Part shown: piece after piece, positions 265 to 35,873 of the stretch
How the letters are laid out: each line of letters begins with the position of its first letter
Numbering within the stretch: position 1 is the first letter of the stretch
Assembly (NCBI RefSeq): GCF_900167415.1
Contig: NZ_FUWU01000033.1
Coordinates: forward strand, 1-35,873
Direction of reading: 5' to 3'
DNA from: Fibrobacter intestinalis
GTDB taxonomy: Bacteria; Fibrobacterota; Fibrobacteria; Fibrobacterales; Fibrobacteraceae
Length of the DNA: 35,873 bases
Translations under genes and position numbers: made by a program
The notes under the pieces: generated by a model
What the model saw: the letters and a program-made list of their open reading frames with translations, nothing else
Told to the model about the DNA's origin: nothing
The model's database searches: none

Positions 265-285
265 TTTAGAATGAAATTTTTTTAG

Positions 286-345
286 AGTTCGCTCTTATTC
301 TGGACCTGAAAAACGACCAAACTTTCAACCATCCGAGAATAAGAC
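286..345 (+). repeat. Structured intergenic repeat, copy 1
   Basis: CTCTTATTCT (292-301) can pair with AGAATAAGAC (336-345) with one mismatch, enclosing a segment with GAAA and TTTCAACC. The same layout, with recognisable sequence identity (CTCTTATTCT, CGAC, TTTCAACC, AGAATAAGACAGAC, CTCAC), recurs on the minus strand at 34842-34890 and 34572-34622. A second hairpin follows (CACACC/GGTGTG, about 353-368), just as a hairpin follows in copy 3. It may be a structured RNA, a transcription signal or a recombination boundary; the sequence does not decide. Confidence 0.6.
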
Positions 346-420
346 AGACACTCACACCCTATGGTGTGGGTCGTTTGTACTTATCGGATGGAAGGCTTCT
401 TGGTCGTTGCCGCAGGTCAA

Positions 421-477
421 TAAGTGCTGACGATTCCGCACTTTTTCTTTTTTTTAAGCGCGAAACGCAAGCACTTA
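421..477 (+). other. Long-loop inverted repeat upstream of the FISUMP operon
   Basis: TAAGTGCT (421-428) and AGCACTTA (470-477) are perfect 8-base inverted repeats. The interior has a T-rich run and a small GCG/CGC hairpin (458-468). A related phrase (ATAAGTGATGCGGACTCC) occurs after the last gene of this cassette at about 2598-2615, suggesting boundary sequences on both sides of the gene group. An attC-like role was considered but no integrase is present. Confidence 0.45.
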
Positions 478-489
478 AGGGGAAGACGG

Positions 490-515
490 ACTCCGCATTT
501 TTCAACAAACGGAGT
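490..515 (+). promoter_or_regulatory. Hairpin overlapping the FISUMP gene ribosome-binding site
   Basis: ACTCCG (490-495) pairs with CGGAGT (510-515), leaving a 14-base loop. The 3' arm contains the Shine-Dalgarno GGAG (511-514), six bases before the ATG at 521. Folding would hide the ribosome-binding site. The methyltransferase gene at the other end of the window has the same arrangement with unrelated stem sequence. Confidence 0.5.
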
Positions 516-520
516 AACCG

Positions 521-1423
521 ATGAAAACAAACACCCTTCTGATGACGGCGACCTTTGCCATTTTAACGACCACTTTTACCGCTTGCAGCGGAGGTTCTTT
601 TACAGACCCTCGGGACGGGCAAGAATACAAGACCATCAAAATTGGGGAGCAGGTATGGATGGCGGAACCATTGCGATATGCGGAAAAAGCGTGTGGTGTG
701 ATGTTCGGTGGTGGATCTGTATATAAATGGAATTCCGCAATTGAGGCTTGTCCCGATGGTTGGCATTTGCCTAATTTAGAAGAATTAAAAAAACTCCAAG
801 CCGCAAGCAACGATTCCGTATTTAAAGAGACTTGGACTTCTACAGAACAGTCCGATTTTATGTTAGCCGCCTATGTAGGAAACGGAAAGGAGCACTCCAA
901 ACAATCCAAATATGACGCCTTCCTCGTTCATTGCATACAGGGGAAGCCCGAACGTTCCCCTAAACTTACCGTCAAGGGCTACGAAGCAGTTCGCATAGGA
1001 AAACAACTTTGGATGGCGAAAAACTTGGCCATTGAGTCCCCCAATAGCGTCTGTTATTTAGACGATGAAAGCGAATGTTCTAAAGGACGTTACTATCCTT
1101 ATTTTGAAGCCAAAAAGATTTGCCCAGAAGGATGGCATCTACCATCAAAATCGGAAGCTGCCCAATTACTCAATCAATTAAAAAAAGAAAAAGTACCAGA
1201 ACTTAAGACGGAGGATAGTAGCGCATTTCTTTTCACACGAGGATATTTTGATGTACAAAGCACAAACTATAAAGATCTTTATGGAAATCTGCTGTGGACA
1301 GCAGATTGGGAATACGCTATTCGCAACAGCAGAAAGCGTGAGCTTTGGACCGATACTCAGCTTCGGAAAGGCGTTTATAAACTCGCCGTCCGCTGCATCG
1401 CCGATTCCGAGGAGAACAACTAA
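521..1423 (+). CDS. FISUMP-domain lipoprotein
   Basis: This 300-aa protein has a signal peptide ending in a lipobox with Cys22 (FTAC), so it should be lipid-anchored, probably on the outer membrane. Two copies of the Fibrobacter succinogenes major paralogous domain follow: about residues 30-140 (IGEQVWMAEPL, then CPDGWHLP at 77-84) and about 152-293 (IGKQLWMAKNL, then CPEGWHLP at 202-209). The family is expanded in Fibrobacter and related in fold to formylglycine-generating/C-type-lectin-like proteins; its biochemical function is unknown. GGAG lies six bases upstream of ATG. The stop overlaps the next start (TAATG), so translation is probably coupled. Family assignment is firm, function is not. 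Confidence 0.85.
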   Translation: MKTNTLLMTATFAILTTTFTACSGGSFTDPRDGQEYKTIKIGEQVWMAEPLRYAEKACGVMFGGGSVYKWNSAIEACPDGWHLPNLEELKKLQAASNDSVFKETWTSTEQSDFMLAAYVGNGKEHSKQSKYDAFLVHCIQGKPERSPKLTVKGYEAVRIGKQLWMAKNLAIESPNSVCYLDDESECSKGRYYPYFEAKKICPEGWHLPSKSEAAQLLNQLKKEKVPELKTEDSSAFLFTRGYFDVQSTNYKDLYGNLLWTADWEYAIRNSRKRELWTDTQLRKGVYKLAVRCIADSEENN

Positions 1424-29049: not shown

Positions 29050-32000
29050 CTAAAACGCTTTTTCAACCCATTCGGCAAGCTTGCCTTCCTTGGCGAGTTC
29101 GGCGGTATCTTTCATCTTGAAATTCGGGTAAAGCGCCTGGATTTCCGATGCGGTCTTGCCTTCGATTTCTCTGTTGAATCCTAGAATGTAGTGCATGGCA
29201 ATCATGTAAATGATTTCGGTGGGAGCTGCCCCGTAAACTTGATTCTTGACGATATACTCTAGCCTTTTCTTGTCGTCGGGGAAGAGTTCCTTCATCTTTT
29301 GGGAGCGATAAATCCGTTTGATGATTTCGGTGATATAAAGTCCCGATTTCATATACAGGTCGGCAAAGGTGTGCGTCGGGTCGTCGAAGCACCCCGGCGT
29401 TTCCTTTTCCAGCATATCCACCATCTCCTTGACGACTTTTTTCGGGGTGAATATCTGGTTTGTCTTTTGCGGCGGAATGTAATCGAAAATATCGCCTTTG
29501 AAATTTTCCTTGAAGTAATCCGCGAGCTCCGAACGTTTACGCATAAATTCTTGGACGGAATCGTTGAAGACGACGGATTCAAAGAGATGGCCAGCGTAAT
29601 GCTTTTTCTTGCCGTCATTTTCGTCGGTGTAATCGCCGCCGTCGCGAAGGAACTTGAATTCGTCAACGGTGATGCTTGTGACTTCAAGGAATACGTTGCC
29701 CGGAATGTCTCGTTCGAAATTTTCGAGAGTGGTTTCGGCATTTCCGTAAGCCATTAGGAATGAAGGAATCGTGCGGGCAAAGCCACGCAGATGATCGCGG
29801 ACGCGTTCTTCGATGGCGTTTTTCTTCTTTTCGATTTTACTTTCTTCGACCGCCTTGACGGTTTCCTCTGTCGCCTTTTTCCAAATGTCCGATGTATCCG
29901 AAACGGTTTCTTTGAATTTTTTCTCAGCAGCATCCATTTCCTTTTTGAATAACTGCTGAATTTGCTTTTCTTCGGCCTTGGAATTGCAGTTTTTCAACGC
30001 CTCGTCGCGCTTATGTTCCGCTGTACCGGCTTCTATCTTGAAATCGGCGGCGGCAGAACTGATTTTCTTTTGTCCGTAATTTTGCAGATTGCGTTCAAAT
30101 TCCTTGGACTGAGATTTGGTCATGTCTTGGCCAAACTTGACCTTGGCTTCTTCGGCTACTTTCTTTACAGATACATCGTAAACAGTGGTCAATTCCTTAA
30201 CGACATTTTCTATTTCCGAAGGCTTGTGGTCTCGCAGTAACCTATTCACGTCTTTTTCGTAATCATTAGATTGCTGGGCAAAAACCGGATCACCAAACTT
30301 ATCTGCGGCTGTCCCGACCACCTGTTCCGAGGGAACATCGACATTTCCATTTTCATCAAGAGGAAGTTCATTCGCCTGTTCCGGGGTGACAATATTCTTG
30401 TCCGCTTCTGCCTTGGTGACAGGATTTACCTTTTTGAGGATGTCGTTTACAATCGAAGGTGCAGCAAAAATTCCGCTGATATTCTGGAAAAGGAAATTGC
30501 TCATGAATCCATGATTCACGACTTCCTTAGCGTGGATATGCCTCGGGATGGTCAACACCTTTTCGGCATCCAGCTCTATCATTTCGCCATTGTCGTCTTC
30601 GCCTACCACAGGGAAGAAGTTCAAGAGTTCCAGAACATGCTTCTTGCGCTTTTCGCTATCACCTGCACCACCGGCAGTATCCTTGTACTGGTCATTGGCA
30701 ATGGTTTCCACGATAGTCAGCGTGCGTGCCGGATCAAAATCGAACACATACGCATTATCTTTGCGATATGTTTTGCCATCCTTATCCAAGAAAAGGCACG
30801 GATTCTGAGCACGGAATGCAGCCTGCATATACAGCGCCGGAGAACGCATGGAGCAAAGCATCAGAACAGCGGTCCATTCGGGAATGGTGACGCCCGTCGT
30901 AAGCTGCCCCACCGAAAGGGTAATAGTCTTTTCGTTTTTCTTGATTGCTTCGCGGACAGCGGTAATCGCCTTCTGGTTTTCCAGTTCCTCGTCGCCATTA
31001 CCTACAGCAAGGACCACCGTATATTCCTTGAATACAGGGTGCTGTGTCAAAAGCTTTTTCAAGGCGATGGCAGAATCTACACGATTCAACAACCAGAACG
31101 TATGCTTGAGCTGGTTCCTGAGTTCTTCCGTAGAGAACGGATACTTTTTCTGCTCCGTAAGAGCACGCAGGAACTTCTTTACATCTTCGAGATGTTCAAA
31201 ATACCCTGAAGCATTCGTCTTGAAGAACTCGTTCAAGTCAAAGTAATATTGCGTTTCTTCGTCATCAATGAGAGTTCCAGCATCGGCCTTCGCTCCCATC
31301 ATATCGGACATCTGGTAAGTGAACAGATTGAGCTTCGGCAAGTCTTCGTAAGGATTTTCTATCCCCTTTTCCGCAAATTCTTTTTTACGCTCCTGTTCGT
31401 CTGCGTATGTCCAGTTGAATATAGCCTCTTCGGGGAACTTGTCGGAAGCAAGCATCTTGAACGGAGTGCCCGAAAGGTTCAGCGTAAAACGGCGTTTGAT
31501 GCGTTCCAAGGCAACATCCGTTTTATCGGTTTCTACGCCCTCGTGCGCCTCGTCAAGAATCAGCACATCCCAATCAAGTTCAGAAACTTCGCGGAGTTTT
31601 TCGTAATCGCCGCCAAAAGCCTTTGCACCTTTAAGGTCTTGCAAGGAGATAAATTCAATGCAGCCAAGCCTGTTCTTGCTAATGGCACGAGTGAATTCAT
31701 CCCTTGTCAAAACATGCTTGTATTTTTGTGGATTCTTCTTGAAAACATCCACTTGGCTTACAAAATAGTAGCCGCCTTCCGTCCCGACGAAACGGGCATA
31801 ATCGCTATACCAGCTATCGGCAATGGCGGGGCGATTTGTCAGGATAAGCACATTTTTTGCGCCGACGCGCCTGCAAAAATCGTATGCCGTGAGCGTCTTT
31901 CCAAAACGGGGCTTCGCGTTCCATAGGAATTCGGGGGCCTTGTCCTTTTTCAGGATTTTTATCAACTTGTGGTTGTCGAAATAATTGGCAGTCTTTCTGG

Positions 32001-32436
32001 CGGCTTCTTCTTGCTCGTCACGGAGTTCATAGATTTCGACTCCATCCATCTCGGTGAGGATTCCGTGATTTTCCTTAAAGTCGCGGAAGTGATTTTTTGA
32101 TGTTGCTGCGTCGGTCCTGAACCATTCGGTTTTGGGCTTGCGCTCGATATTTTGCTTGTTGGTCAAGTATTTGTGGAAGTCGTGATCGCGAAAGGGCGTG
32201 GAGTCGTCTTCGAATTCCGCTTTGCCAGACCACTCGATGTTTGCTTTTGTGTTGGAGGTGTGGGTTTGCTGCTTGACGCGTTCATCAACGGCGGTTTTCA
32301 GGTTCTCGCCGAAATTGACTTCGGTATCGCCGATTTTTATCCAGCCGTTGTGGGTTACGTCGTTTGGAGTGGTGTAGGCGTAGATGGCGCGGTTCACGGG
32401 CCGTATGGTTTTGATTTGGGTGACGTTAGTGGGCAT
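29050..32436 (-). CDS. Restriction-like SF2 helicase with GIY-YIG-like N-terminus and truncated methyltransferase C-terminus
   Basis: The 1128-aa protein combines three parts. N-terminus (about 15-95): RAIYAYTT and GWIKIGDT resemble a T5orf172/GIY-YIG nuclease core with Arg53 but a doubtful catalytic Glu (HDFHKYL). Centre: SF2 DNA translocase with Walker A variant PRFGKT (176-181), DEAH (295-298), SGTPF (322-326) and the late motif QAAFRAQNP. Charged coiled coil follows (about 760-860). C-terminus (993-1090): NQIFTPKKVV, FADLYMKSGLYITEI and VYGAAPTEI recall methyltransferase motifs X, I and II, but no motif IV follows. The methyltransferase gene ends with TAATG over this start. Likely it is the restriction subunit of a two-gene system; anti-phage activity is inferred. 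Confidence 0.75.
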   Translation of the reverse strand: MPTNVTQIKTIRPVNRAIYAYTTPNDVTHNGWIKIGDTEVNFGENLKTAVDERVKQQTHTSNTKANIEWSGKAEFEDDSTPFRDHDFHKYLTNKQNIERKPKTEWFRTDAATSKNHFRDFKENHGILTEMDGVEIYELRDEQEEAARKTANYFDNHKLIKILKKDKAPEFLWNAKPRFGKTLTAYDFCRRVGAKNVLILTNRPAIADSWYSDYARFVGTEGGYYFVSQVDVFKKNPQKYKHVLTRDEFTRAISKNRLGCIEFISLQDLKGAKAFGGDYEKLREVSELDWDVLILDEAHEGVETDKTDVALERIKRRFTLNLSGTPFKMLASDKFPEEAIFNWTYADEQERKKEFAEKGIENPYEDLPKLNLFTYQMSDMMGAKADAGTLIDDEETQYYFDLNEFFKTNASGYFEHLEDVKKFLRALTEQKKYPFSTEELRNQLKHTFWLLNRVDSAIALKKLLTQHPVFKEYTVVLAVGNGDEELENQKAITAVREAIKKNEKTITLSVGQLTTGVTIPEWTAVLMLCSMRSPALYMQAAFRAQNPCLFLDKDGKTYRKDNAYVFDFDPARTLTIVETIANDQYKDTAGGAGDSEKRKKHVLELLNFFPVVGEDDNGEMIELDAEKVLTIPRHIHAKEVVNHGFMSNFLFQNISGIFAAPSIVNDILKKVNPVTKAEADKNIVTPEQANELPLDENGNVDVPSEQVVGTAADKFGDPVFAQQSNDYEKDVNRLLRDHKPSEIENVVKELTTVYDVSVKKVAEEAKVKFGQDMTKSQSKEFERNLQNYGQKKISSAAADFKIEAGTAEHKRDEALKNCNSKAEEKQIQQLFKKEMDAAEKKFKETVSDTSDIWKKATEETVKAVEESKIEKKKNAIEERVRDHLRGFARTIPSFLMAYGNAETTLENFERDIPGNVFLEVTSITVDEFKFLRDGGDYTDENDGKKKHYAGHLFESVVFNDSVQEFMRKRSELADYFKENFKGDIFDYIPPQKTNQIFTPKKVVKEMVDMLEKETPGCFDDPTHTFADLYMKSGLYITEIIKRIYRSQKMKELFPDDKKRLEYIVKNQVYGAAPTEIIYMIAMHYILGFNREIEGKTASEIQALYPNFKMKDTAELAKEGKLAEWVEKAF

Positions 32437-34424
32437 TAGACCATCTCCTTGACATGCGATTCAATAAAGTCGCGTTCTTCTTTAGATAGACCGTATTTTT
32501 TGTAAAGTTGCAAGTCGATTTCGTGAACGGATTTGGACCAGTCGATGTCGGATTTGGAAGTGAAGTCTTGAAGAGGGACGTATTTCCAAACCTCTTTACG
32601 AGCGTTATCTGGAGTAACTTTACAAATTCCAAGTAATGCCCGTACAAATTTTGTCTTTAAATACTTTATTAAAGATTCACATTCTGCTTTTGAATTAAAT
32701 CTTCCAAAACTTATAAATGTTTGAGTACTTACGCTATTTGGAGAAGCTATTTCTAATTCACTAAGTATTTCTCCAAATTTTCCTTCACCATTTGATTTGG
32801 CAACAAAAATTTTCCATTTATCCAAATTTTCATGATTCGCTATATATTCTTTTTTTACAAATTTATAGCATCTTTTTGTTTCGTCCAATCCAAAGATTCT
32901 TCTATATGAATTTGATTTGTTTTTAAATTCTTCATCGAAAAAGATTTCAGGGAATTTTTTAAAAATATTTGAGCCAATAGATAATTTTTCCGAGGCCTTC
33001 ACTCTTCTATTAAATTCGGGATGTTTTTGATAGAGTATTTTAGTCAGTCGATAACTAGAACGGTTAAAATGAATTTCATCAAGATAGTGGTTACATAAAG
33101 GATTTATTTTGTCAACTATGATTTGCATAATATCTGAAGTAACAAATTTCCCAATTTTCCCAAATATTTTTTCTTGATTCCTTAGTGTTATGGCAACACC
33201 TCCCTTTATATCAGTGTTTGGAAATATTTTTGAGGCTTCGGGTTCGTAATGAAGAACTTTAAAATGCTCATCATTTAAAATTTTTTCATTCCATGCTTTA
33301 GGAGTCTGTCCAGCGTTAAAGAGGAATCGGGCTGGTGTAATTAACTCTACACAATCTGCAATCTTGAATACTGCATCCATAAAATGATTATAAATAGGCG
33401 GCTGCCTTCCATTCTTTTCGGATTCTTCCTGATACGGTGGATTCCCTATCACGGCAAAGAATTTTTTCATGATACACTCTCCCTTATTTTGAAAAAGTTG
33501 AAATTCCGGCGGAGATTGAAAAACACATTTGTGCTTTCTTCGCCAGTCGTAAATCCGGCATATTTCGGTGGTGACTTCGCTTGTTTCACCTTCTGTCTCG
33601 AATCCGAGGAAATTCATTTGTCCGCAATCCTTTTCTTGAATTTGCGGAATCCTGCCTGTAAGGCCGTCCATCTGCCAAAAGTTCCACGCAATCACGTTGG
33701 CGGCGGTCATGGCCGTTTTCTTGTCGGGCTTTTCGCCTAACTTCTTTTCCCAATGTTCCACCCATGTCAAAAACACATTGATGCGGGCAATCAAAAGGTT
33801 GTCGCCTTGAAACTCGTAACCGTAAGAACTTTCCAACGAACGCATAGACCATTTCCGATATTCGTCGCCGTCGGCATTTTCGGCTGCCACGCGGAGTTTG
33901 CGATCCAAGAATCCAATGCGGTCTTCCACTTCGATAAAATTCCCGTCTGTGGGATTGTAACGGCTGGTGACAAAAGGAGCTTCGCCGCAAGTGATTTCGA
34001 GCTTGGTGAGTTCGATATAGTTCTCCCAAGACGTTCCTTCGTTAAACCGAATTTTTGGACGAGAAGTTGTCCAGGCTCTTTCCCCTTCCACATTGAATGC
34101 GCCTGCGTAACCCAAGTAATCGTCATCTAGGGCGTTGTTCATCTGGTTGCAAACCCAAGAGGGCGTAAAGACTTCGGCGCGCTTTTTGGTGCGATTCTTT
34201 TGGGTGTCGAGTGCCTTAGTGATTCTCGGGCGCACAAGCATCAGGCTTCCGCCGGTAATTTCCTTGAATTCGATTTCGCTTTTTGGGGAAATGGCGTCGT
34301 ATTCGTCTGTCGCCCACAAGATGTTCTTGCCGGTGGTCTTGTCTTTCAAGAGTCTAGGGAGCACGGCTCCTTGATACACGTCAAAGATTTGCCGGACTGG
34401 CGTGTCTGCCGCAATGTTTTTCAT
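32436..34424 (-). CDS. N6-adenine DNA methyltransferase, restriction-modification type
   Basis: The 662-aa protein is an Eco57I-like methyltransferase: motif X region AEVFTPSWV (84-92), motif I variant EITCGEAPF (143-151), motif II region GYEFQGDNLL, and catalytic motif IV NPPY (328-331). The part after about 340 likely includes the target-recognition region. It overlaps the helicase gene by one base. GGGAG lies six bases before the ATG and is partly held in a hairpin. Two oddities: an internal Met319 has its own strong Shine-Dalgarno (AAGGGAG), and the DNA from about 33470 to 32590 is visibly AT-richer than the 5' half, suggesting exchange of the recognition part. Confidence 0.8.
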   Translation of the reverse strand: MKNIAADTPVRQIFDVYQGAVLPRLLKDKTTGKNILWATDEYDAISPKSEIEFKEITGGSLMLVRPRITKALDTQKNRTKKRAEVFTPSWVCNQMNNALDDDYLGYAGAFNVEGERAWTTSRPKIRFNEGTSWENYIELTKLEITCGEAPFVTSRYNPTDGNFIEVEDRIGFLDRKLRVAAENADGDEYRKWSMRSLESSYGYEFQGDNLLIARINVFLTWVEHWEKKLGEKPDKKTAMTAANVIAWNFWQMDGLTGRIPQIQEKDCGQMNFLGFETEGETSEVTTEICRIYDWRRKHKCVFQSPPEFQLFQNKGECIMKKFFAVIGNPPYQEESEKNGRQPPIYNHFMDAVFKIADCVELITPARFLFNAGQTPKAWNEKILNDEHFKVLHYEPEASKIFPNTDIKGGVAITLRNQEKIFGKIGKFVTSDIMQIIVDKINPLCNHYLDEIHFNRSSYRLTKILYQKHPEFNRRVKASEKLSIGSNIFKKFPEIFFDEEFKNKSNSYRRIFGLDETKRCYKFVKKEYIANHENLDKWKIFVAKSNGEGKFGEILSELEIASPNSVSTQTFISFGRFNSKAECESLIKYLKTKFVRALLGICKVTPDNARKEVWKYVPLQDFTSKSDIDWSKSVHEIDLQLYKKYGLSKEERDFIESHVKEMV

Positions 34425-34432
34425 TCCATTCT

Positions 34433-34469
34433 CCCGAACGTCAAGCGCAACATTTCGCTCCCGTTCGGG
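34433..34469 (-). promoter_or_regulatory. Hairpin overlapping the methyltransferase ribosome-binding site
   Basis: On the coding strand CCCGAACG and CGTTCGGG form an 8-bp stem with an additional AGCG/CGCT pairing inside. The 3' arm ends in GGG of the Shine-Dalgarno GGGAG (34435-34431), six bases before the ATG at 34424. Folding would limit translation of the methyltransferase, and coupling would extend this to the helicase. It could equally be a protein-binding palindrome. Confidence 0.5.
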
Positions 34470-34571
34470 GACTGGATTACGGCGATTTCACAAAAAGAGA
34501 ATACACGACGCCCTAGGCATACAATACGCCCACGCCAAAACGGGGCGCGCATGCGTCCGGACGGAAGTACC

Positions 34572-34622
34572 CTCTTATTCTTTTGGGTTGAAATGGTCGA
34601 GATTCCATGCCAAGAACAAGAG
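34572..34622 (-). repeat. Structured intergenic repeat, copy 2
   Basis: CTCTTATTCTT (34572-34582) pairs with AAGAACAAGAG (34612-34622) with one mismatch. The inside holds TTGGGTTGAAATGGTCGAGATTCCAT, read on the minus strand as the same block as copy 3 (CTCGAC then ATTTCAACCCAA). The inner small stem keeps its pairing with a changed base (GGAAT with ATTTC), so sequence drift preserved the structure. Confidence 0.6.
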
Positions 34623-34823
34623 CAACTCGTGGGAATTTCTCTTGCTCCGGCATTTCTCGCGCACCAAATTAAAAAGGCGGTGAGTTGAATGACCTTACGA
34701 CATGTGGCTCTCGACTGCCAACCCAAATAAGGCCAAACAACCCACGCCCCATAAAGGCCGATATGCCAAAACGGACTGCACAACGGCAGCCTGCATAGCG
34801 AATCGTTGCCGGCTTTGCACGCC

Positions 34824-34890
34824 GACAGACGTGAGCGTCTGTCTTATTCTCTTGGGTTGAAATTGTCGAGATTTCATATCGAGAATAAGA
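34824..34890 (-). repeat. Structured intergenic repeat, copy 3, with adjoining hairpin
   Basis: TCTTATTCTC (34842-34851) and GAGAATAAGA (34881-34890) are perfect inverted repeats, enclosing a second one, GAAAT/ATTTC (34859-34863 and 34871-34875). Next to it GACAGACG-TGAG-CGTCTGTC (34824-34843) is a perfect 8-bp hairpin. Read on the minus strand, the order (outer stem, inner stem, hairpin) matches copy 1 on the plus strand at the other end of the window. Confidence 0.65.
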
Positions 34891-35062
34891 GAAACTCTCT
34901 ATTTTCAGCGGATAATATAAAATATTCCGCCAGCAAAAGGTGTTGTTGACGACTAAAATGCTCTATCCTAAAAAGCCAAGGGTTCTACCGAAAATCCGTT
35001 AAAGTAAAACGGTAAACAGCCCTTTTTCCTAGCTCCCTACTTTCAACCAATCACAAATCACG

Positions 35063-35270: not shown

Positions 35271-35440
35271 AATCGTTACCATTACACGGCTCCTTTCACG
35301 GGTGAAACAACGAATGTTATCATTACACAGCCCGTTTCACGAGTGAAACGACGAATGTTATCATTACACAGCCCGTTTCACGAGTAAAACGACAAATGCA
35401 ATCATTACACAGCCCATTTCACGGGTGAAACGACAAATGT
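35271..35440. repeat. Tandem repeat, about four 41-bp units
   Basis: Units start at 35271, 35313, 35354 and 35395, with a partial fifth from 35436. The first is 42 bases and the next three are 41. The common core is ATCATTACACAGCCCGTTTC, then ACGRGTGAAACGACR and AATG. Each unit has TTTCAC facing GTGAAA, a small palindrome (one unit has GTAAAA). No spacers separate units, so it is not a CRISPR array. The array has no coding potential I trust. Confidence 0.85.
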
Positions 35441-35530: not shown

Positions 35531-35873
35531 TAGTCAGCCCTTAAAAAGTCACTTTGCGAACGCAAGATAAGGACGTTCGCATTTTTTGTTCATTCCGTTC
35601 CACAGAAGGCAAAAACAGTATAGCCATTCCAACAGGGCAAAAAAGCGCCTCATGGCCCTCTTGAAGTTGAACGCCGCCGCAGCAAGCTTTGCATTGAGCA
35701 TGTCGCCAAAGATTCCCTTGTAGAAATTTCTGCCCATACGGTGGTCGCTTTTCAGGTGGCCGTTGATAGGCTCGATGCCAGCCCTCTTGCAAAAAAGCTT
35801 GTGAGCCTTTTTCTTCTGGTAGTAAGTCGCGTTTTTCTTCGGGACGTCCGGTATCACGATCTTTGTCGTTCCG
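35531..35873 (-). mobile_element. 3' end of an IS5-like insertion sequence, right copy
   Basis: The inverted counterpart of the left edge. Homology with 1-264 begins at 35531 (reverse complement TAGTCAGCCC ...), which marks the likely IS end. The 5' part continues past the window. Both IS copies point with their 3' ends towards the interior. Confidence 0.8.
35549..35873 (-). CDS. IS5-like DDE transposase, C-terminal part only
   Basis: The frame runs from the window edge to TGA at 35551-35549. Residues before the part shared with the left copy (TKIVIPDVPKKNATYYQKKK) extend the match to IS5-type transposases. It differs from the left copy by a few substitutions (for example DMLNAK instead of DILNAK), most of them silent, which suggests that both copies were kept under selection or transposed recently. 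A GTG inside the frame at 35857 is not the true start; the gene begins outside the window. Confidence 0.85.
   Translation of the reverse strand, partial: GTTKIVIPDVPKKNATYYQKKKAHKLFCKRAGIEPINGHLKSDHRMGRNFYKGIFGDMLNAKLAAAAFNFKRAMRRFFALLEWLYCFCLLWNGMNKKCERPYLAFAK

Follow-up and report, generated by a model that had tools for sequence, protein, structure and literature searches.

The window, by which we mean the whole 35,873-nt stretch analysed here (Fibrobacter intestinalis, contig NZ_FUWU01000033.1), carries a FISUMP lipoprotein-like ORF near its left end and a restriction operon near its right end, each with a structured leader in front of it (Table 1). The same IS transposase 3′ end lies at both contig ends (1-262, plus strand; ~35541-35873, minus strand), so that the contig evidently ends at assembly breaks in a repeat. 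A tandem array of four 41-bp units with a short inverted repeat (GTTTCACTCGTGAAAC) occupies 35275-35440, between the IS and the leader of the restriction operon.

The initial annotation had placed three copies of a structured repeat at 286-345 (plus strand), 34572-34622 and 34842-34890 (both minus strand), upstream and in coding sense of the FISUMP gene and of the operon of an Eco57I-type methylase and a ResIII helicase. Direct sequence comparison confirmed the copies at these sites, their placement relative to the genes, and the listed sequence blocks as common to all three. The pattern TTTCAACC-N(2-8)-AGAATAAGA occurred 3 times in the window and 0 times in 100 dinucleotide shuffles. The outer stem claimed for the repeat folded in 3 of 3 copies (z-scores -2.2, -3.2 and -1.8), and GACAGAC with another hairpin does follow copies 1 and 3. 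The inner-stem change cited there, from GAAAT to GGAAT, just turns A-U into G-U and says little by itself. The strong covariation was located instead in segment pairs a/a′, b/b′ and c/c′, which span the element. The three copies belong to one family, but copies 2 and 3 are not separate elements; they form a tandem pair at one locus. What had been described is the 5′ part alone of the full element, and the hairpin after GACAGAC is the start of a far longer element with a 3′ domain and a terminator, extending to ~448 on the left and to ~34671 on the right.

Table 1. Features of the FISUMP (left) and restriction-operon (right) loci; positions are those of the window.
Feature	Position	Strand	Details and basis
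Left: whole leader module, single-copy short form	265..533	+	kept across genera as a unit
Left: 5′ domain, copy 1	286..344	+	P1 stem 292-301/336-344; a 303-308, b 312-320, c 329-336
Left: P3 stem, proposed antiterminator	338..384	+	338-358 with 363-384; MFE fold and alifold/pair counts of 17 short forms
Left: c′ 384-391, b′ 400-408, a′ 413-418	384..418	+	complementary to c, b and a by duplex prediction
Left: terminator-like hairpin	365..448	+	arms ~365-373 and ~431-441, T-run from 442; direct sequence
Left: hairpin ACTCCG/CGGAGT	490..515	+	predicted; would sequester the GGAG Shine-Dalgarno sequence of the ORF at 521
Left: FISUMP (Fib_succ_major) lipoprotein-like ORF	521..1423	+	PF09603, E 3.9e-23
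Right: tandem copy 1 (copy 3 of the initial annotation), full element	34671..34896	-	P1, P3, variable arms, c′-b′-a′, terminator-like hairpin and T-run
Right: tandem copy 2, a lone 5′ half located in the mRNA leader	34567..34627	-	a-b-c complementary to the 3′ half of copy 1
Right: Shine-Dalgarno hairpin CCCGAACG/CGTTCGGG	34433..34469	-	directly before the methylase start codon (34424); sequence
Right: Eco57I-type DNA methylase, operon gene 1	32436..34424	-	PF07669, E 4.7e-14; PADLOC MTase_II, E 8.9e-87
Right: ResIII helicase/type IIG-like restriction subunit, operon gene 2	29050..32436	-	PF04851, E 7.7e-14; PADLOC REase_MTase_IIG, E 9.6e-12

Anatomy was defined by reading ~90 copies with their flanks. 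The full element is ~160-330 nt long. Its 5′ hairpin, P1 (CTCTTRTTCTC/GAGAAYAAGR around a - GAAAT b ATTTC - c), carries segments a-b-c, and its 3′ terminator-like hairpin carries c′-b′-a′. P1 is followed by CGAACGCTCACG and a middle region consisting of a short loop (short forms) or extra arms (long forms). The order in the 3′ domain is GGGGCGTGRGTYGTTTG-YRYTTAT; c′ - GGC b′ GCCTC - a′; RTAARYGCA..CRACTYCACGCC; and a U-run. Since the regular expression that recognised full copies included the terminator, its presence in all of them does not count as independent evidence. The same-strand gene lies within ~100-400 nt past the U-run. A promoter-like TATATT was found ~15-25 nt before many tandem first copies and farther upstream in some single-copy restriction-modification (R-M) forms, and hairpins covering the Shine-Dalgarno sequence (CTCCRY/RYGGAG and others) were found at several loci, both window loci included. 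One decayed element, at L084:7044-7104, has an internal deletion that joins the 5′ half straight to a′ and the terminator.

At the left locus, positions 265-533 matched a leader from another genus (L095:1515-1781) at 86.7% identity over 270 columns; the lipoprotein gene downstream of that leader is unrelated. The homology begins at 265, just past the IS end near 262, and ends 12 nt inside the ORF. The IS has replaced the stretch that holds the promoter region in the related leader. The predicted left-locus duplexes are CCATCCGA/TCGGATGG, AACGACCAA/TTGGTCGTT and GACCTG/CAGGTC. At the right locus, copy 2 paired with the 3′ domain of copy 1 at -34.2 kcal/mol, the best of 59 candidates, and a related locus (L009) has CCAGAAC/GTTCTGG at the place equivalent to the Shine-Dalgarno hairpin.

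A covariance model from the three window copies gave 30 matches in the same genome at E<1, many of them paired at a spacing of 265-290 nt. Of 41 relatives, 14 had matches, and all 14 belong to Fibrobacteraceae. A refined model of the 5′ domain, built from 41 diverse copies, gave 28 own-genome copies at E<1e-6 (the next match had E 0.002). This model matched 89 of 111 Fibrobacteraceae genomes, restricted to 4 of 11 genera, and 0 of the 57 remaining genomes of the phylum; searches over more than 40 genomes used stricter filters, and weak relatives may have escaped them. Two named records, a Fibrobacter succinogenes MAG and a Fibrobacteraceae MAG, were found by pattern. The check proposed at the outset, a covariance model built from the three copies, thus yielded, with its refinement, many matches in the family and compensatory changes among them; the two outcomes set in advance against the proposal, no further matches or no compensatory changes, were both examined, and neither occurred.

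The segments a-b-c are complementary to c′-b′-a′ of their own copy, in nested order, by duplex prediction. Since the variable segments come out misaligned with MAFFT alone, cognate duplexes were also compared with non-cognate ones, a permutation test of pairing that is independent of alignment. Among 59 copies, the mean duplex energy was -34.9 kcal/mol for cognate and -16.0 kcal/mol for non-cognate partners, and the lowest of 10,000 permuted means was -18.8 kcal/mol. In an alifold analysis of 17 short forms, 19 of the 36 pairs of the long-range fold (fold A) had changes on both sides, with 82 double-change cells vs 28.6 after shuffling. The covariation score was 0.471, compared with at most 0.126 for slid structures, a control that favours fold A since the structure came from the same alignment. 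P1 covaries independently (29 double-change cells vs 8.3 shuffled). These data strongly support the structure.

Two strands of the element have alternative partners. For the 3′ strand of P1 (AATAAG) these are the 5′ strand of P1 and YRYTTATT in the 3′ domain; for CGTGRGTYG they are CGAACGCTCACG (in P3) and CRACTYCACGCC (in the terminator). Two mutually exclusive folds are therefore predicted. Fold A is a long hairpin in which a-b-c and the P1 3′ strand pair with c′-b′-a′ and the 5′ side of the terminator, so that the terminator cannot form; fold B consists of P1 plus the terminator-like hairpin. Overall the two folds differ little in energy: B minus A averaged +3.5 kcal/mol (sd 6.8; 60 copies) in a calculation that ignores co-transcriptional folding, and the minimum free energy of the element was ~-60 to -125 kcal/mol. 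Short single copies favoured fold A by ~3 to 20 kcal/mol. At the left window locus the long-range fold was favoured by 19.0 kcal/mol, and in right tandem copy 1 the two folds were equal (-83.5 vs -83.6 kcal/mol).

In 25 tandem loci, copy 2 consists of the 5′ half only and finds its complement in copy 1, within the 3′ half; the mean duplex value was -30.8 with this 3′ half vs -17.2 with other 3′ halves. Pairing codes were locus-specific and turned over as sets. Loci L086 and L103 have first genes that are 99% identical, and a, a′ and the a segment of copy 2 had all changed together between them; own pairings were -30.3 to -33.4 and crossed pairings -15.8 to -22.1. Loci L085 and L100 (genes 95% identical) behaved in the same way. 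The code turnover between L086 and L103 could reflect recombination of whole leaders rather than stepwise change, with the match of copy 1 and copy 2 still kept. Duplication could account for part of the complementarity of copy 2, but is probably not the whole explanation, because the c segments differ and the changes are concerted. Within the F. intestinalis genome, cognate pairings were -29.6 to -40.2 and the best wrong partner was mostly at -19 to -27. The exception was two neighbouring C107 loci, with possible cross-talk at about -32. At the level of the sequences compared here, complementarity, covariation and locus-specific codes are evident.

The 28 own-genome copies represent 22 loci, of which C11 and C78 are identical to each other and lie close to contig ends. 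At 12 of the 22, the element precedes a DNA methylase or restriction gene: EcoRI_methylase or its blastp cluster (C47, C24, C25), C5 methylases (C34, C46, C107), N6_N4 (C80, C15), Eco57I (C20), Tsp45I (C36), an N6/S fusion (C74) and type II/IIG (C83). In other genomes, the methylase/restriction and FISUMP/surface classes recurred; a SNF2/HKD candidate defence protein and a PDC-S31 occurred once each. The element precedes type I, II, IIG and III R-M genes as well as non-R-M genes. The element is upstream of a same-strand ORF at nearly all loci, mainly in the methylase/restriction or FISUMP/surface classes. At the remaining own-genome loci the downstream genes are those for FISUMP or further envelope proteins, for DUF4417, for a glycosyltransferase at a distance of 300 nt, and unknowns. 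The element is not obligatory for methylases. Just 3 of ~18 own-genome C5-methylase genes (C34, C46, C107) have it; most own-genome methylases lack it, and it marks a subset. This genome (3.3 Mb) is unusually methylase-rich, with 21 PF00145, 15 PF02384 and 7 PF01555 matches, several of the genes being broken by stops.

DUF4417 proteins recur after the element (L070:5614-6342, L077:5118-5861 and L107:1653-2516; two assigned by Pfam and the third by blastp cluster) and possibly represent an unrecognised defence or mobile-element gene; PADLOC gave no match for the two DUF4417 proteins tested. Another family of ~815-850 aa occurs with the element at L118:5267-7711, L119:4777-7332 and L120:1677-4115. 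The L118 protein, the sole member examined, had no Pfam match and a weak PADLOC match to a type II methylase, and the family is possibly a new restriction-methylase type.

Many leaders share 80% identity or more, and the first genes behind them do not group with each other. Similar leaders before unrelated genes indicate that the leader is a portable regulatory unit. The alternative first offered, of a mobile or cassette-associated element, therefore stands insofar as the leader acts as an exchangeable module, but we found no sign of a transposable element or an integron attC site with the integrase model, exact patterns and similarity searches used. The reading as a conserved leader RNA without a name is well supported by further matches, covariation, constant orientation, the terminator, the Shine-Dalgarno hairpin and the lack of an Rfam match. 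When the whole window was scanned against Rfam release 15 at the gathering threshold, a tRNA alone passed and the element had no match; permissive scans of 1-600 and 34400-34960 gave chance-level matches only. We found no description of the element in the open-access literature (Weinberg 2010 names Fibrobacteres in a reference title only), and the leader RNA is apparently undescribed, although an earlier account in subscription papers or preprints is possible.

We favour the interpretation, with a probability of roughly 60%, that the element is a family of cis-regulatory leaders, each an attenuator with locus-specific self-antisense control of an accessory operon. The element is a same-strand leader before a gene, its predicted hairpin and U-run compete with an alternative fold, and an RNA complementary to the leader hairpin is encoded at the same locus, as in pT181/pIP501-type systems. 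From the modelled folds, fold B would lead to termination and a short RNA, and fold A to read-through into the operon; transcription attenuation, regulated termination and its direction are suggested by these models. The short terminated RNA would expose c′-b′-a′ and could pair with a-b-c of new transcripts from the same locus and, at tandem loci, also with the second a-b-c in the mRNA leader, an action in trans that the complementarity suggests. The result would be locus-specific negative feedback, as in antisense-controlled attenuators such as pT181, and the Shine-Dalgarno hairpin at several loci may provide a second, translational control. Regulated termination, trans action, feedback and translational control are all proposed by analogy with pT181-type systems. 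Diverging codes would keep the many copies in a genome from cross-regulating. A purely cis fold, or pairing of copy 1 with copy 2 inside one transcript, would explain most of the complementarity. More tentatively, and with the odds somewhat against it, the copies may form a chromosome-wide set of orthogonal self-recognising switches, in which each RNA is its own antisense, the tandem mRNA copy is a target mimic, feedback acts on the own operon only, and codes diversify under selection such that R-M and surface operons are regulated independently.

Two exclusive folds, the leader position and a conserved P3-strand core (CGAACGCTCACG/CGTGRGTYGTTTG) would also suit a riboswitch-like leader, in which the choice of terminator or read-through falls to a metabolite, ion, tRNA or RNA-binding protein, the long-range fold is one state of an aptamer and the codes are drifting helices. 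We consider this unlikely, since the targets (DNA methylases, restriction enzymes, surface lipoproteins, DUF4417) are functionally unrelated and do not suggest one metabolite, the downstream gene changes more slowly than the helices, which shift in concert (different codes before a 99% identical gene), and a second 5′ half without a 3′ half is unexpected for an aptamer. A SAM or other metabolite riboswitch, which the methylases had brought to mind, is itself unlikely given the FISUMP/surface genes downstream. Less probable still is a leader acting in cis only, as an RNA stabiliser or a processive antitermination element (put-RNA- or EAR-like) that aids long, horizontally acquired operons. The very stable fold and the constant coding-sense position before operons fit such a role; however, stabilisers or antiterminators with a protein or RNA polymerase as binding partner usually retain sequence-specific loops, whereas here the loops are the least conserved part yet stay complementary, and a terminator-like hairpin from the same strand would be needless.

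That leaders are common to different genes and genera, are palindromic and have accessory genes downstream could point to DNA rather than RNA, namely an attC-like recombination site or a MITE-type repeat spread with cassettes, its palindrome reflecting the folding of single-stranded DNA. This is very improbable: the element always precedes its gene, singly and in coding sense, and comes with promoter-like and Shine-Dalgarno features; sequences diverge between copies with pairing kept; the long-range helices are rich in G-U type pairs (155 of 1576), which favours RNA; and no copies were found in viral contigs searched with two exact patterns or in plasmids and phages given one similarity search each. 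Integron attC sites were rejected, because the best of 24 own-genome matches to the integrase model TIGR02249 reached 79 bits against a cut-off of 265 bits, and because the elements sit on the 5′ side of genes at sites dispersed across contigs, not 3′ in arrays. The defence genes downstream would also agree with an antitoxin or guide RNA directed at the encoded protein, in the manner of type III toxin-antitoxin systems or AbiF/RCd22, and for AbiF there is a two-motif RNA active in cis and trans (PMC12373285). This idea was dropped as the least probable of these explanations, since the downstream proteins share no family and one fold could hardly bind all of them.

How R-M and defence operons are switched on without harm to the host is an open question, and the known examples we found are mainly proteins (C regulators, RptR) and a few reverse-promoter RNAs. 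In the element, one RNA architecture lies before unrelated methylase/restriction types and surface proteins across much of Fibrobacteraceae. Its locus-specific codes are natural material on the evolution of orthogonal RNA regulators and possible parts for synthetic attenuators.

The antisense RNA of pT181 and pIP501 comes from the opposite plasmid strand; the complement of the Fibrobacteraceae element, in contrast, is in the same RNA, on the same strand. The element also differs from these systems in its tandem target half-copy, its many chromosomal loci and the restriction and surface genes downstream. As in pT181 and pIP501, the leader would choose terminator or read-through, the outcome could be set by an RNA that complements the first hairpin, and specificity would lie in a swappable hairpin code (PMC3753616); in pT181-type attenuators, swapping the code of the first hairpin creates orthogonal pairs (PMC3753616). 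R-M expression is controlled by antisense RNA from reverse promoters in EcoRI (Rna0) and Eco29kI (PMC3874152). The element would share such RNA-level control; however, those are reverse-promoter transcripts of one system each, and the element is one structured family before many R-M types and non-R-M genes. The abiF motif/RCd22 of Clostridioides difficile is likewise a structured RNA with two motif copies tied to a phage-defence gene; unlike the element, it binds AbiF, a single protein family, and its abstract describes no long-range covarying code (PMC12373285). Terminator/antiterminator riboswitches resemble the element in its predicted two exclusive folds and intrinsic terminator-like hairpin, but the element shows no sign of a conserved binding pocket or a metabolic regulon. 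By these analogies, the element would work like an antisense-controlled attenuator, and what is new would be its own same-strand complement, the half-copy in mRNA leaders and the many chromosomal loci.
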